Shown here: positions 5,353 through 54,985 of the stretch, piece by piece
Layout of the letters: each line of letters begins with the position of its first letter
Numbering within the stretch: position 1 is the first letter of the stretch
DNA from: Pseudochelatococcus contaminans
GTDB lineage: Bacteria > Pseudomonadota > Alphaproteobacteria > Rhizobiales > Beijerinckiaceae
Length of the DNA: 64,000 bases
NCBI RefSeq assembly: GCF_014195635.1
Contig: NZ_JACICC010000001.1
Coordinates: forward strand, 124,001 to 188,000
Direction: 5' to 3'
Position numbers and translations under genes: made by a program
The notes under the pieces: generated by a model
The model's input: only the letters and a program-made list of their open reading frames with translations
Database searches by the model: none
What the model was told of the DNA's origin: nothing

Positions 5353-6384
5353 ATGGCCCTGTCGCGCGGGCGCCGCGAGAACCGGCGCATCGATTATTGG
5401 CCGGGCTTCGTCGATGCCCTGTCGACGCTGGTATTATCCATCGTCTTCCTGCTCTCGGTCTTCGTGCTGGCGCAATTCTTCCTGTCACAGGAACTGACCG
5501 GCAAGGATGAAGCGCTGCGCCGGCTCAATCAGCAGATTGCGGAGCTTACAGATCTGCTCGCCCTTGCCCGCGCCGAGAACAAGGGCCTGGAGGACAACCT
5601 GGCCACGCTGCAATCCACCCTGCAAACCAGTGCGGCGGAACAAAGCCGCCTGCAGGGTTTGCTCGATGCCGGCACCAACGCCAGCACATCCGCCGAAACC
5701 GAAACCAGCCGCTTGTCAGCCGCCCTCGCCGGCGAGCAGGAAGTATCGGCCCGCGCATTGGCGCAGGTAGAGCTTCTTAACCAGCAACTCGCCGCCCTGC
5801 GCCGCCAGCTCGCGGCCCTTGAGGATGCACTGGCCGCCTCCGAAGCGCGCGACAGGGAATCGCAGGAACGCATCGCCGATCTCGGCAGCCGCCTAAATGT
5901 CGCGCTCGCCCAGCGCGTACAGGAACTGGCCCGCTACCGCTCCGACTTCTTCGGCAGGCTGCGCCAGATCCTGGGCGACCGACCGGACATTCGCACGGTG
6001 GGTGACCGCTTCGTCTTCCAGTCGGAAGTATTTTTCGACACCGGCGCGGCGGAGCTGCTGCCGGAAGGCCAGCAGGAACTGGACAAGGTGGCAGGAGCCC
6101 TGCTCGAACTCTCCGAAGAAATCCCGCCGGATATTCCGTGGGTGCTGCGCGTCGACGGGCATACGGATATCCGCCCGCTTTCAGGCACTGGGGCCTTCCG
6201 CTCAAACTGGGAGCTATCCGCGGCGCGCGCCATTGCTGTCGTGCGTTATTTGCAGTCGCGCGGGCTTCCACCGCAACGTCTGCTTGCCGCCGGATTCGCC
6301 GAGTATCAACCGCTCGATCTGGCAGAAAACGACGAGGCCTTCCGCCGCAACCGCCGCATTGAGTTGAAGCTGACCGAACGGTAA
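5353..6384 (+). CDS. OmpA/MotB-family peptidoglycan-binding protein
   Basis: A 343-residue partner of the preceding channel protein. It has one N-terminal membrane anchor (LSTLVLSIVFLLSVFVLAQF), then about 150 residues of coiled coil rich in L, A, E and Q. The C-terminal OmpA domain contains FFDTGAAELLPEG, RVDGHTD, NWELSAARAIAVVRYLQ and NRRIELKL, which bind peptidoglycan. This matches a MotB/TolR-like subunit reaching across the periplasm. A GTG at 5347 overlaps the upstream stop codon and could also be the start. The ATG at 5353 is preceded by GGGGTGAG. The two genes are clearly one operon. Confidence 0.85.
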   Translation: MALSRGRRENRRIDYWPGFVDALSTLVLSIVFLLSVFVLAQFFLSQELTGKDEALRRLNQQIAELTDLLALARAENKGLEDNLATLQSTLQTSAAEQSRLQGLLDAGTNASTSAETETSRLSAALAGEQEVSARALAQVELLNQQLAALRRQLAALEDALAASEARDRESQERIADLGSRLNVALAQRVQELARYRSDFFGRLRQILGDRPDIRTVGDRFVFQSEVFFDTGAAELLPEGQQELDKVAGALLELSEEIPPDIPWVLRVDGHTDIRPLSGTGAFRSNWELSAARAIAVVRYLQSRGLPPQRLLAAGFAEYQPLDLAENDEAFRRNRRIELKLTER

Positions 6385-6513: not shown

Positions 6514-7425
6514 ATGAACACAGATCCGCAACCGTTTCATGTTCCCGGCGTCCGCGTGCATGTCATTCGCTCTCCGTTCGACGGCTTTGCCTATCGCATC
6601 TTCATCGCCCAGCCGGAACAGCCGCCCCCGGACACCGGCTATCCGGCTATTTTCCTGCTCGATGCCAACGCCACCTTTATGGCCACCGTCGAATCGCTGC
6701 GGATGCGCGTCCGCCGGCAGGCATCGACGGGCATCGTTCCGGCTGTGGTCGTCGGCATTGGCTACGACACCGACGATGCCTATGACACCGCCCGGCGCAG
6801 GTATGACTTCAGCCGCGAGGTTATTCCGCCAACGGAGATCGGCACCAGCACAGCTTCGGCGAAAGCCGCCAGCGTTCCAGCTACCGGTGGCGCGGCAACC
6901 ATGGCGCGGCTGATCGACGACGTGGTGCGACCCCTCGCCGCCCGTGCAGCGCCGCTGGATCCCTCGCACCAGACTTTGATCGGCCACTCGCTCGGCGGCT
7001 GCTTCGTGCTATCGCAGCTGGTCCAGAATCCTGCGGCATTCGAGAGCTACATCGCCATCAGCCCCTCAGTGTGGGCGGACGAGGATTGGCTGCTGGCCCA
7101 CGCGGCAACATTGAACGAGCGGTTGCCAACCGATATGCCACCGCGTCGCGCCCTGATCACCGTCGGCGAGTTCGAGCAGACTCTGGCGCCCTGGCAGACT
7201 GAACTCTCCAATCCAGAGCGCGTGCTGGCCATGCGCCAGAAACGCGCGATGCGCGACAAGGCACACAACCTCGCCCGGCGATTAGGTGTGAACGATCCCG
7301 ACAGGCTGATCGTGCGCTTTGAGGAGTTGCCCGGTGAAGATCATTCGTCATCGGCCTTGGTGGGGATCAGTCGGGGACTGCGATTCGCTCTTTGGCCAGG
7401 CGCTGCCGCTTTGCGGAATATATGA
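6514..7425 (+). CDS. Alpha/beta-hydrolase esterase (esterase D / IroE-like)
   Basis: About 303 residues. The esterase-D fold is shown by the early strand YPAIFLLDANATF, the nucleophile elbow IGHSLGGCFVLSQL, and the stretch SYIAISPSVWADEDWLL that follows in BesA/IroE/Fes-like enzymes. The family includes esterases that cut trilactone catechol siderophores to release iron. With an enterobactin-type locus 11 kb away, such a role is attractive but inferred. No signal peptide is evident. The ATG at 6514 has GAGG five bases upstream. An in-frame ATG at 6484 is also possible. Confidence 0.75.
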   Translation: MNTDPQPFHVPGVRVHVIRSPFDGFAYRIFIAQPEQPPPDTGYPAIFLLDANATFMATVESLRMRVRRQASTGIVPAVVVGIGYDTDDAYDTARRRYDFSREVIPPTEIGTSTASAKAASVPATGGAATMARLIDDVVRPLAARAAPLDPSHQTLIGHSLGGCFVLSQLVQNPAAFESYIAISPSVWADEDWLLAHAATLNERLPTDMPPRRALITVGEFEQTLAPWQTELSNPERVLAMRQKRAMRDKAHNLARRLGVNDPDRLIVRFEELPGEDHSSSALVGISRGLRFALWPGAAALRNI

Positions 7426-54295: not shown

Positions 54296-54535
54296 TCATT
54301 CATCCAGCTCAATGGTCGGCCCGTTCCGTGACAATACACGGGTCTGCACGCGCCGTATGATCCGCCGTGTCGGCCTGCGGATGAACGGAGTCGTCAGCGC
54401 AACAACAGTTTCCTTAATGAAATAAACGATCCCGAGCAAAACAATGCATGTCAATAACGCCACAAACGCCTGCACCCATGGTGTGAGTTGAGCATAAAGC
54501 GTCAGCAGATTAGTGCCAAGCTGGTCTTCGGTCAT
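54296..54535 (-). CDS. Small single-pass membrane protein, unknown function
   Basis: A 79-residue protein. One membrane helix (FVALLTCIVLLGIVYFI) lies at about residues 22-40. It is followed by a very basic segment (RRPTRRIIRRVQTR) that should face the cytoplasm by the positive-inside rule. I recognise no family. The ATG at 54535 has AAGGGGAG at good spacing, a strong sign of translation. A 220-nt leader full of hairpins lies upstream, which suggests post-transcriptional control. Confidence 0.65.
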   Translation of the reverse strand: MTEDQLGTNLLTLYAQLTPWVQAFVALLTCIVLLGIVYFIKETVVALTTPFIRRPTRRIIRRVQTRVLSRNGPTIELDE

Positions 54536-54539
54536 GATA

Positions 54540-54762
54540 ACTCCCCTTCGGAATGAAGAAGCCACCAGCAAAGCCAAGGGCCAGGCTGGTGGCCGGGAGA
54601 GTTAGAAAACCGCGTGTGTACGGCCGCGCTGGCCTTTAGGCGCGAGCCCTGAACATAGCCAGCGCCTCCCCGGCCATAGAGCTGGGGAGGCACCATTACG
54701 GTTGGTACCCAACCGACGCACGAGAGGTTTCTAAGCCTCAGAGACACGAGGTCGCATCTCCA
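54540..54762 (-). ncRNA. Structured leader or small RNA upstream of the membrane-protein gene
   Basis: Hairpins in order from the gene: CCACCAGC/GCTGGTGG (54562-54569, 54585-54592); GCGCTGGC/GCCAGCGC (54626-54633, 54658-54665); GCCTCCCC/GGGGAGGC (54664-54671, 54684-54691); CGGTTGG/CCAACCG (54699-54705, 54709-54715); GAGG/CCTC (54724-54727, 54736-54739). A further pair, AGGCGC/GCGCCT (54638-54643, 54662-54667), competes with two of these. This looks like a riboswitch-like leader or an sRNA. I cannot match it to a known family. Confidence 0.6.
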
Positions 54763-54768
54763 CCTTCA

Positions 54769-54796
54769 GACATAAGACGTTTGTGGGAGGAGTCAA
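54769..54796 (-). promoter_or_regulatory. Candidate sigma-70 promoter of the structured leader
   Basis: On the minus strand, TTGACT (54796-54791) and TATGTC (54774-54769) are 16 bp apart. Transcription would begin near 54762, at the edge of the hairpin region. Confidence 0.45.
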
Positions 54797-54985
54797 ACGG
54801 GCAGAGAAAACAGCCTGTTGGAAAAGCCGCCGCACATGCCTCGGAGGCACAAGCTCGCGCCGTCATCACACACGATATGCCTTTGCCGGCAAAGGCGAGC
54901 GGAGATGCCGAAAAGGCTGCGGCGAGCGGGCAAAGTGGTGTCCCTTCACCCGGCGTTATATGATGGGCAGCAAAGGAGCCCCGCG

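Follow-up and report, generated by a model that had tools for sequence, protein, structure and literature searches.

A structured leader RNA with two mutually exclusive folds and a self-matching hypervariable block, resembling the C4 antisense RNA of phage P1, upstream of a small membrane protein in Pseudochelatococcus contaminans

Among the described RNAs, the C4 antisense RNA of phages P1 and P7 (RF01695) and a few C4-like elements are the closest to the leader studied here. In the P1 record the order of the elements is promoters, a1, b1, c4 (77 nt), a2, b2 and icd (73 aa), and by sequence a1 is complementary to the c4 linker and b1 to the loop of the second hairpin of c4, which starts at the GG of UAU/GGUGGGG. 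In C4, the 5' end of the closing stem is a cleavage site of RNase P (PMC5320573), and the cleavage of a model substrate by RNase P depended on an RCCA motif (PMC12710915). Acinetobacter baumannii carries several copies per genome of Group 1 C4-like sRNAs, which differ mainly in the target-specifying loop; C4-like sRNAs of this organism, with their variable a' loop, are separate transcripts whose high coverage starts at the GG motif (PMC5320573). The upstream target region of c4 has itself been named as a structured element, the c4-a1b1 motif (Weinberg et al. 2010; PMC2864571), and sRNA-Xcc1 (RF02221) is found upstream of symE in Xanthomonas integron cassettes (PMC12444791).

The leader analysed here lies in a stretch of 64,000 nucleotides of the P. 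contaminans genome (the window, to which all coordinates refer unless another locus is named), and its parts are collected in Table 1. The sense strand of the structured stretch is the minus strand, from 54796 to 54536, because a TTGACT box starts at 54796 and the ATG (54535-54533) of a 79-aa ORF adjoins 54536; a reading on the plus strand was dropped, since the start codon, the ribosome site and the promoter-like box are all on the minus strand. The region is rich in GC and is overlapped by small unrelated ORFs on both strands. On either strand, none of 200 dinucleotide shuffles had a minimum free energy as low as that of the sequence itself (z of -6.69 for the plus and -5.17 for the minus strand). 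Perfect stems of 9 bp (54561-54569/54585-54593) and 8 bp (54626-54633/54658-54665), a stem of 11 nt with 91% complementarity (54664-54674/54681-54691) and a perfect long-range stem of 8 bp (54590-54597/54669-54676) were present, and they compete with each other, since they have bases in common near 54664-54676 and 54590-54593. An earlier note, made from the letters of the window, had described a highly structured leader with competing stems ahead of a small membrane protein, ending in a ribosome site and matching no known RNA class. This description was borne out by the stems, their shared bases and the comparison with shuffles, as well as by the sequence GGGGAGTTA at 54546-54538, just ahead of the ATG. 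Rfam 15 at gathering scores gave no family in the whole 64-kb window, and no family reached its threshold on the RNA itself, either here or in 34 loci, the threshold matches to ar14, suhB and tRNA falling elsewhere in the loci, off the RNA. A tmRNA-like reading of a short in-frame AUG was considered by eye and dropped. Upstream of the promoter-like box there is a perfect 9-bp inverted repeat with zero loop (GCCTTTGCC/GGCAAAGGC, 54879-54896).

Table 1. Parts of the leader and of its surroundings, in window coordinates
Feature	Position	Strand	Basis or remark
-35-like box TTGACT	54791..54796	-	Read from the sequence; TTGAC clusters there in relatives; unlisted by a generic scan
-10-like TTATGT	54770..54775	-	Sequence only; 15 nt from the -35 box (a 16-nt spacing gives TATGTC)
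5' hairpin GGAGATGCGACCTCGTGTCTCT	54740..54761	-	RNAalifold alignment, columns 2-21
5' arm, a1-like part GAGGCTTAGAAACC	54726..54739	-	Pairs with linker CGGTTTTCTAACTC in fold 1; covarying helices 1-3 of A4
5' arm, b1-like hypervariable block CGTGCGT	54716..54722	-	Helix 4 of A4, 7/7 pairs changed on both sides
Hairpin GGTACCA/TGGTGCC	54689..54709	-	Window fold, RNAalifold, helix 6 of A4
Hairpin GCCTCCCC...GGGGAGGC (fold 1)	54664..54691	-	Helices 7-10 of A4, variation mostly one-sided
C4-like closing stem, 5' strand GGCCGGGGAG (fold 2)	54666..54675	-	Fold-2 helix 1 in A4
Predicted RNase P cut, inferred	between 54676 and 54675	-	GG at the first two positions in 101/102, preceding U in 60/102
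Hairpin P2 GCGCTGGC...GCCAGCGC, interior with conserved ATGTTCAGG and CCTAAAGG	54626..54665	-	Helices 11-12 of A4
Hairpin P3 GGCCGTACACACGCGGT (fold 2)	54609..54625	-	Fold-2 helix 2, 4/4 pairs changed on both sides
P3 loop, hypervariable block ACACACG	54613..54619	-	Partner of 54716-54722
Linker TTTTCTAA, P3 to closing stem	54602..54609	-	Same place as the linker in c4 of P1
C4-like closing stem, 3' strand CTCTCCCGGCC	54591..54601	-	5' end and linker end complementary to the Shine-Dalgarno region
ACCA (RCCA motif) directly after the closing stem	54587..54590	-	RCCA in 73/102 relatives
Hairpin GGCCACCAG...CTGGTGGC	54561..54594	-	Incompatible with the closing stem
Shine-Dalgarno region GGGGAGTTA	54538..54546	-	9 contiguous pairs (one G-U) with TAACTCTCC at 54596-54604
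79-aa ORF	54296..54535	-	One membrane segment predicted by eye

The RNA family to which this leader belongs crosses phyla and is far wider than one leader. The full leader was 82% identical in a congener, and BLAST found its core in 14 of the 298 genomes of the family, the window's own among them, often twice per genome. Nineteen copies align from the 5' hairpin through the ribosome site; a covariance model built from 19 relatives (R1) matched 63 of 397 genomes of the order, spread over 37 of 142 genera and carrying at most seven copies each (three in the window's own). A model from 102 further sequences (R2) matched 53 of 385 genomes in the class and, in the phylum, 31 of 299; the R1 and R2 counts for order, class and phylum include the window's own genome. 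R2 also matched 20 of 141 genomes in the order of a verrucomicrobial Akkermansiaceae genome, the centring genome included, and none of 148 in the class of an Amycolatopsis genome (actinobacterial, GC-rich and unrelated). A 24-base pattern was present in at least 120 stretches of named genomes; among the pattern stretches listed, 61 of the first 80 and 34 of the other 40 scored more than 50 bits with R1, and Rhizobium, Methylobacterium, Asticcacaulis, Sphingobium, Paracoccus, Akkermansiaceae, Acidobacteria and Tautonia (Planctomycetes) were among the matches listed. In eight named whole genomes, matches came from the four with the RNA and from none of the four that had the pattern without the RNA. 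With one copy as BLAST query, matches were obtained in 207 of the 72,556 plasmid records, of which 161 are classed as conjugative, with Rhizobium and Agrobacterium foremost; plasmid p42d of Rhizobium etli CFN 42, for example, carries the RNA at 193118-193266. Another copy matched two plasmids; the PLSDB gene table carries no RNA genes, so that a missing annotation there says little. The window copy gave no blastn match in 50,697 phage records, and a phage-element reading was rejected on this ground; 9 of the 12 viral contigs carrying the 24-base pattern had a model match of more than 50 bits. In the open-access literature, mostly in titles, abstracts and passages, we found no description of this RNA family nor, the R. 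etli work included, expression or processing data for it.

RNAalifold applied to a plain MAFFT alignment of 19 copies proposed 57 pairs, and double changes were present in 24. A larger alignment (A4) holds 102 sequences, none of them among the 19 training ones and some of them close relatives of these; it was gathered with R1 and fitted to the R1 structure, and thus leans to the first of the two folds described here. In this fold 1, the 5' arm is paired with the 3' half in a long irregular helix: in A4, 97.2% of 4715 cells were paired, 32 of the 47 pairs had double changes and the double-change cells numbered 940 against a shuffled mean of 280, while slid controls had at most 49.4% of their cells paired. 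Sliding and shuffling therefore failed to reproduce the double changes of fold 1, despite an alignment fitted to it. In fold 2, the 3' half adopts a C4-like domain in which a closing stem of 10 bp, followed by RCCA, comes together with two neighbouring hairpins and a short linker; fold 2 reuses bases of fold 1, and the two are mutually exclusive. Although A4 was not fitted to fold 2, 98.4% of 1412 cells were paired (98.8% in the closing stem and 97.5% in hairpin P3), and 63 cells had double changes against 14.4 in shuffles, a value that was reached in 0 of 500 shuffles; this signal is mostly that of P3 and two stem pairs, because five of the ten closing-stem pairs vary one-sidedly and two are invariant. 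Covariance in homologues was a check proposed in the earlier note, and it turned out to be strong, so that two outcomes named there as refuting, a lack of covariation and a match to a well-known RNA family, did not occur. Both sets of helices are borne out by comparison.

When each fold was forced, fold 1 had the lower energy in 77 of 100 sequences, fold 2 being worse by 4.5 kcal/mol on average (sd 6.3), and the two lay within 5 kcal/mol of each other in 48% of the sequences; the unconstrained minimum was lower than both. In the window, the minimum (-111.9 kcal/mol) contains fold 1, and fold 2 costs 9.7 kcal/mol. The interior of P2, with ATGTYCARGG facing CTAAAGG, was among the most conserved, partly unpaired parts of the RNA.

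The most variable columns of A4 were those of the 5' block and of its partner in the P3 loop, with nearly all four bases occurring in columns 24-28 and 300-304. Binding of the arms, evaluated in 11 multi-copy genomes or contigs (six of the seven copies of genome G508 and three of the four of G664 being taken in), had a mean of -36.2 kcal/mol for cognate (n=30) against -26.7 kcal/mol for mixed combinations (n=68), and in 28 of the 30 copies the 5' arm bound its cognate more strongly than any other partner, the exceptions being L061 and L023. One genome (G340) contained four near-identical copies of 201 bases, in which 12 of 25 block columns differed against 9 of the 176 others (Fisher p 1.3e-7, with blocks defined after inspecting the alignment), and the changes in the blocks were matched on both sides. 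Orthologous Mrr-linked copies within one family had two different blocks. By comparison of the copies, the block is hypervariable and self-matching, and we interpret its pattern as selection for specificity.

With loose Rfam settings, the best two matches of the window both fell on this RNA, on the minus strand, and corresponded to sRNA-Xcc1 and the C4 antisense RNA. The leader shares with C4 the closing stem, the two adjacent hairpins and the linker, a cut between U and GG (predicted in our case), and 5' target sites placed upstream in what would be one transcript, with the complement of the linker preceding that of the loop; the layout of promoter, 5' target sites, c4, ribosome site and small ORF is also that of P1. 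GG was found at the start of the closing stem in 101 of 102 relatives, preceded by U in 60 and by AU, as in P1, in 55. RCCA followed the stem in 73 of 102 and was absent in 29; in 44 of the 73 RCCA copies, a 6-nt test found no downstream hairpin partner, although imperfect ones may escape this test. In contrast to C4, the family has a 5' arm engaged in a long covarying helix, and it is present on chromosomes and plasmids, with a window copy unmatched in phage records. Moreover, the window scored 23.7 bits, under the Rfam gathering score of 45, and the C4 model at E up to 1 had no match on the RNA in the 34 other loci. A model of the C4-like domain of our family (R3) gave 6.1 bits to P1 c4 (E 7.7, fourth of six matches), and no copies of the 5' arm corresponding to a2 and b2 of P1 were detected near the downstream start (5.10 vs 5.20 and 5.65 vs 5.68 permuted, n=100); these two results speak against descent. 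Because the Rfam threshold, the reciprocal search and the second target site of P1 all fail, we did not file this family as C4.

The other described RNAs are similar in part. sRNA-Xcc1, which is also located upstream of a gene, matched in register at the C4-like domain (24 bits in the window and 28.6-36.3 bits in 9 of 34 loci), but all these matches were under its gathering score of 53 and its 87-position model has no 5' arm. The Group 1 sRNAs of A. baumannii are, like the copies studied here, present several times per genome with differences mainly in the specifying loop, but they are described as sRNAs of phage origin, and the section of that report on them describes no self-complementary 5' arm (PMC5320573). 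The c4-a1b1 motif, compared by its description, has the upstream target region as a structured element in common with our family and differs in being listed, in the portion of the source available, for gammaproteobacteria and phages, where no Rfam accession is given (PMC2864571).

The earlier note had also placed a promoter candidate at the start of the leader. The TTGACT box at 54796-54791 makes a promoter for the leader plausible in the window; on the other hand, this box was absent from the list of a generic promoter scan of the window and, by a test of upstream regions, most relatives had no sigma-70-like match, with matches of at least 9/12 in 16 of 148 regions (control rate 1.7%). Twenty of the 27 occurrences of TTGAC in relatives were at -60 to -53 from the first position of the model. 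At the other end, a ribosome site and a start follow directly after the RNA in the window and in many relatives. The window fold with GAGTTA of the ribosome site paired was 1.8 kcal/mol above the minimum. In 100 loci, the linker and stem strand matched the downstream sequence over lengths no longer than in shuffles (6.86 vs 6.76), showing that the Shine-Dalgarno pairing present in the window is not general in the family. As for the 3' hairpin as a terminator, a T-rich tail was seen in some loci only. Two contigs of one genome (L005 1494-1744 and L003 1-251) had an identical stretch of 251 bases with the RNA core and without the ribosome site seen elsewhere, perhaps as a repeat or through an overlap in the assembly.

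The 79-aa ORF of the window gave no Pfam family above the cut-off, with a query that began one codon early and was without the last residue. Downstream ORFs of the relatives were picked by a simple rule, near-duplicates included and none picked for 8 of 182 matches; the 174 picked ORFs, with doubtful ones such as seven 40-aa ORFs before an Mrr gene, fell into 65 clusters. The largest cluster (42) contained small proteins in which one membrane segment is apparent and which, in the four representatives tested, had no Pfam family above the cut-off, and the second (31) contained lone DUF2285 proteins (PF10074). The conjugation antiactivator QseM is one such protein (PMC10359603). In a Ketogulonicigenium plasmid, the gene after the RNA is a lone DUF2285 gene oriented towards a DUF2285 and a DUF6499 gene, and on a Chelativorans plasmid (L207, RNA at 6001-6148) the RNA is directly upstream of traM (PF09228), after an AHL synthase gene. 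Eight downstream ORFs were HTH regulators (one tested against Pfam) and one Mrr_N protein was confirmed; in five plasmid places inspected, the RNA was before one DUF2285 gene, two other regulators and two hypothetical genes. The downstream genes have no common pathway that can be named.

Some particular arrangements were also observed. The other two copies of the window's genome (L055, G000 contig C15 38535-38687, and L056, G000 contig C7 83773-83917) both precede DUF2285-like ORFs. A Rickettsiales MAG (L116) has tandem copies of the RNA at 5971-6126 and 7057-7213, both of them followed by a pilin-like ORF that carries an N-terminal methylation motif. In a congener (L002, 716-1349, minus strand), two overlapping ORFs resembling by eye a HigBA toxin-antitoxin pair are located between rnr and the leader, and no such ORFs were seen at that place in the window.

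We propose, giving it about an even chance of being correct, that the leader is an antisense module resembling C4, which RNase P may cut and which has its own 5' arm as cognate partner. Comparison bears out the structure and the specificity; for the transcription of the leader, its cleavage, its action in trans and the outcome, we infer the following. RNase P cutting between U and GG would free the C4-like domain from the 5' arm, as for C4, and the freed domain would be an antisense RNA that binds the 5' arm encoded at its own locus, either in cis or when carried by further transcripts. The choice between the folds would hold or free the anti-Shine-Dalgarno strand (the linker end and CUCCCC), so downstream expression would follow the amount of RNA already there, and the diversified blocks would spare the copies in one cell cross-talk.

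The earlier note had spoken of a riboswitch-like or antisense-regulated leader, and the evidence points to the antisense option, because what varies is a block for specificity that is self-complementary, and not a conserved pocket, and because the layout is that of the phage P1 C4 antisense RNA. A riboswitch or protein-binding leader acting in cis, in which a pocket in P2 would bind a ligand or protein and pick the fold while the variable helix served as a strut, seems unlikely to us: the conserved, partly unpaired interior of P2 is compatible with a pocket, two exclusive folds both covary and the family stands before many unrelated genes, as shared-signal switches may, but a strut leaves unexplained why four near-identical copies of one genome differ mostly there, and the downstream genes offer no nameable common pathway. 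The same variety of downstream genes (the 174 picked ORFs making up 65 clusters) would suit a free-standing antisense RNA with targets elsewhere and the downstream gene as a mere neighbour, and the C4-like sRNAs of A. baumannii are indeed separate transcripts (PMC5320573); nevertheless, the variable loop fits its own 5' arm in copy after copy, and a ribosome site and start are directly downstream in the window and many relatives, so that this explanation appears improbable to a similar extent.

Dispersal as a mobile sequence (MITE-like or cassette-borne), with a structure that would serve its own spread, could account for up to seven copies per genome and for the presence in 207 of 72,556 plasmid records, 161 typed conjugative, but compensatory change in two incompatible folds together with a specificity block fits RNA function and not DNA mobility, and we regard such an origin of the structure as very improbable. 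Finally, a GC-rich region overlapping small unrelated ORFs on both strands might be expected to show generic structure or structure by chance; this explanation was rejected and retains practically no probability, since the leader beats its shuffles, both folds covary beyond the shuffled and slid controls, and none of the 148 genomes of the GC-rich unrelated class was matched.

If the proposal of a C4-like antisense module partnered with its own 5' arm is true, the layout of phage P1 would be widespread on alphaproteobacterial chromosomes, on conjugative plasmids and in Verrucomicrobiota, Acidobacteriota and Planctomycetota, while being absent from Rfam 15 as judged by the scans of the window and 34 loci, and such a P1-like RNA would precede known conjugation brakes, for example TraM and a lone DUF2285 beside a DUF6499/DUF2285 pair. 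Tentatively, and with less than even confidence, we suggest that these may be self-recognising antisense RNAs across phyla, kept under diversifying selection, in which each copy would read its own dose by way of a private code, amounting to the C4-type immunity or incompatibility of P1 outside phages, in the service of bacterial genes and conjugative elements. Such a private code would explain the coexistence of near-identical copies in one cell, and the family may be an unrecorded route of self-regulation for genes and mobile DNA.
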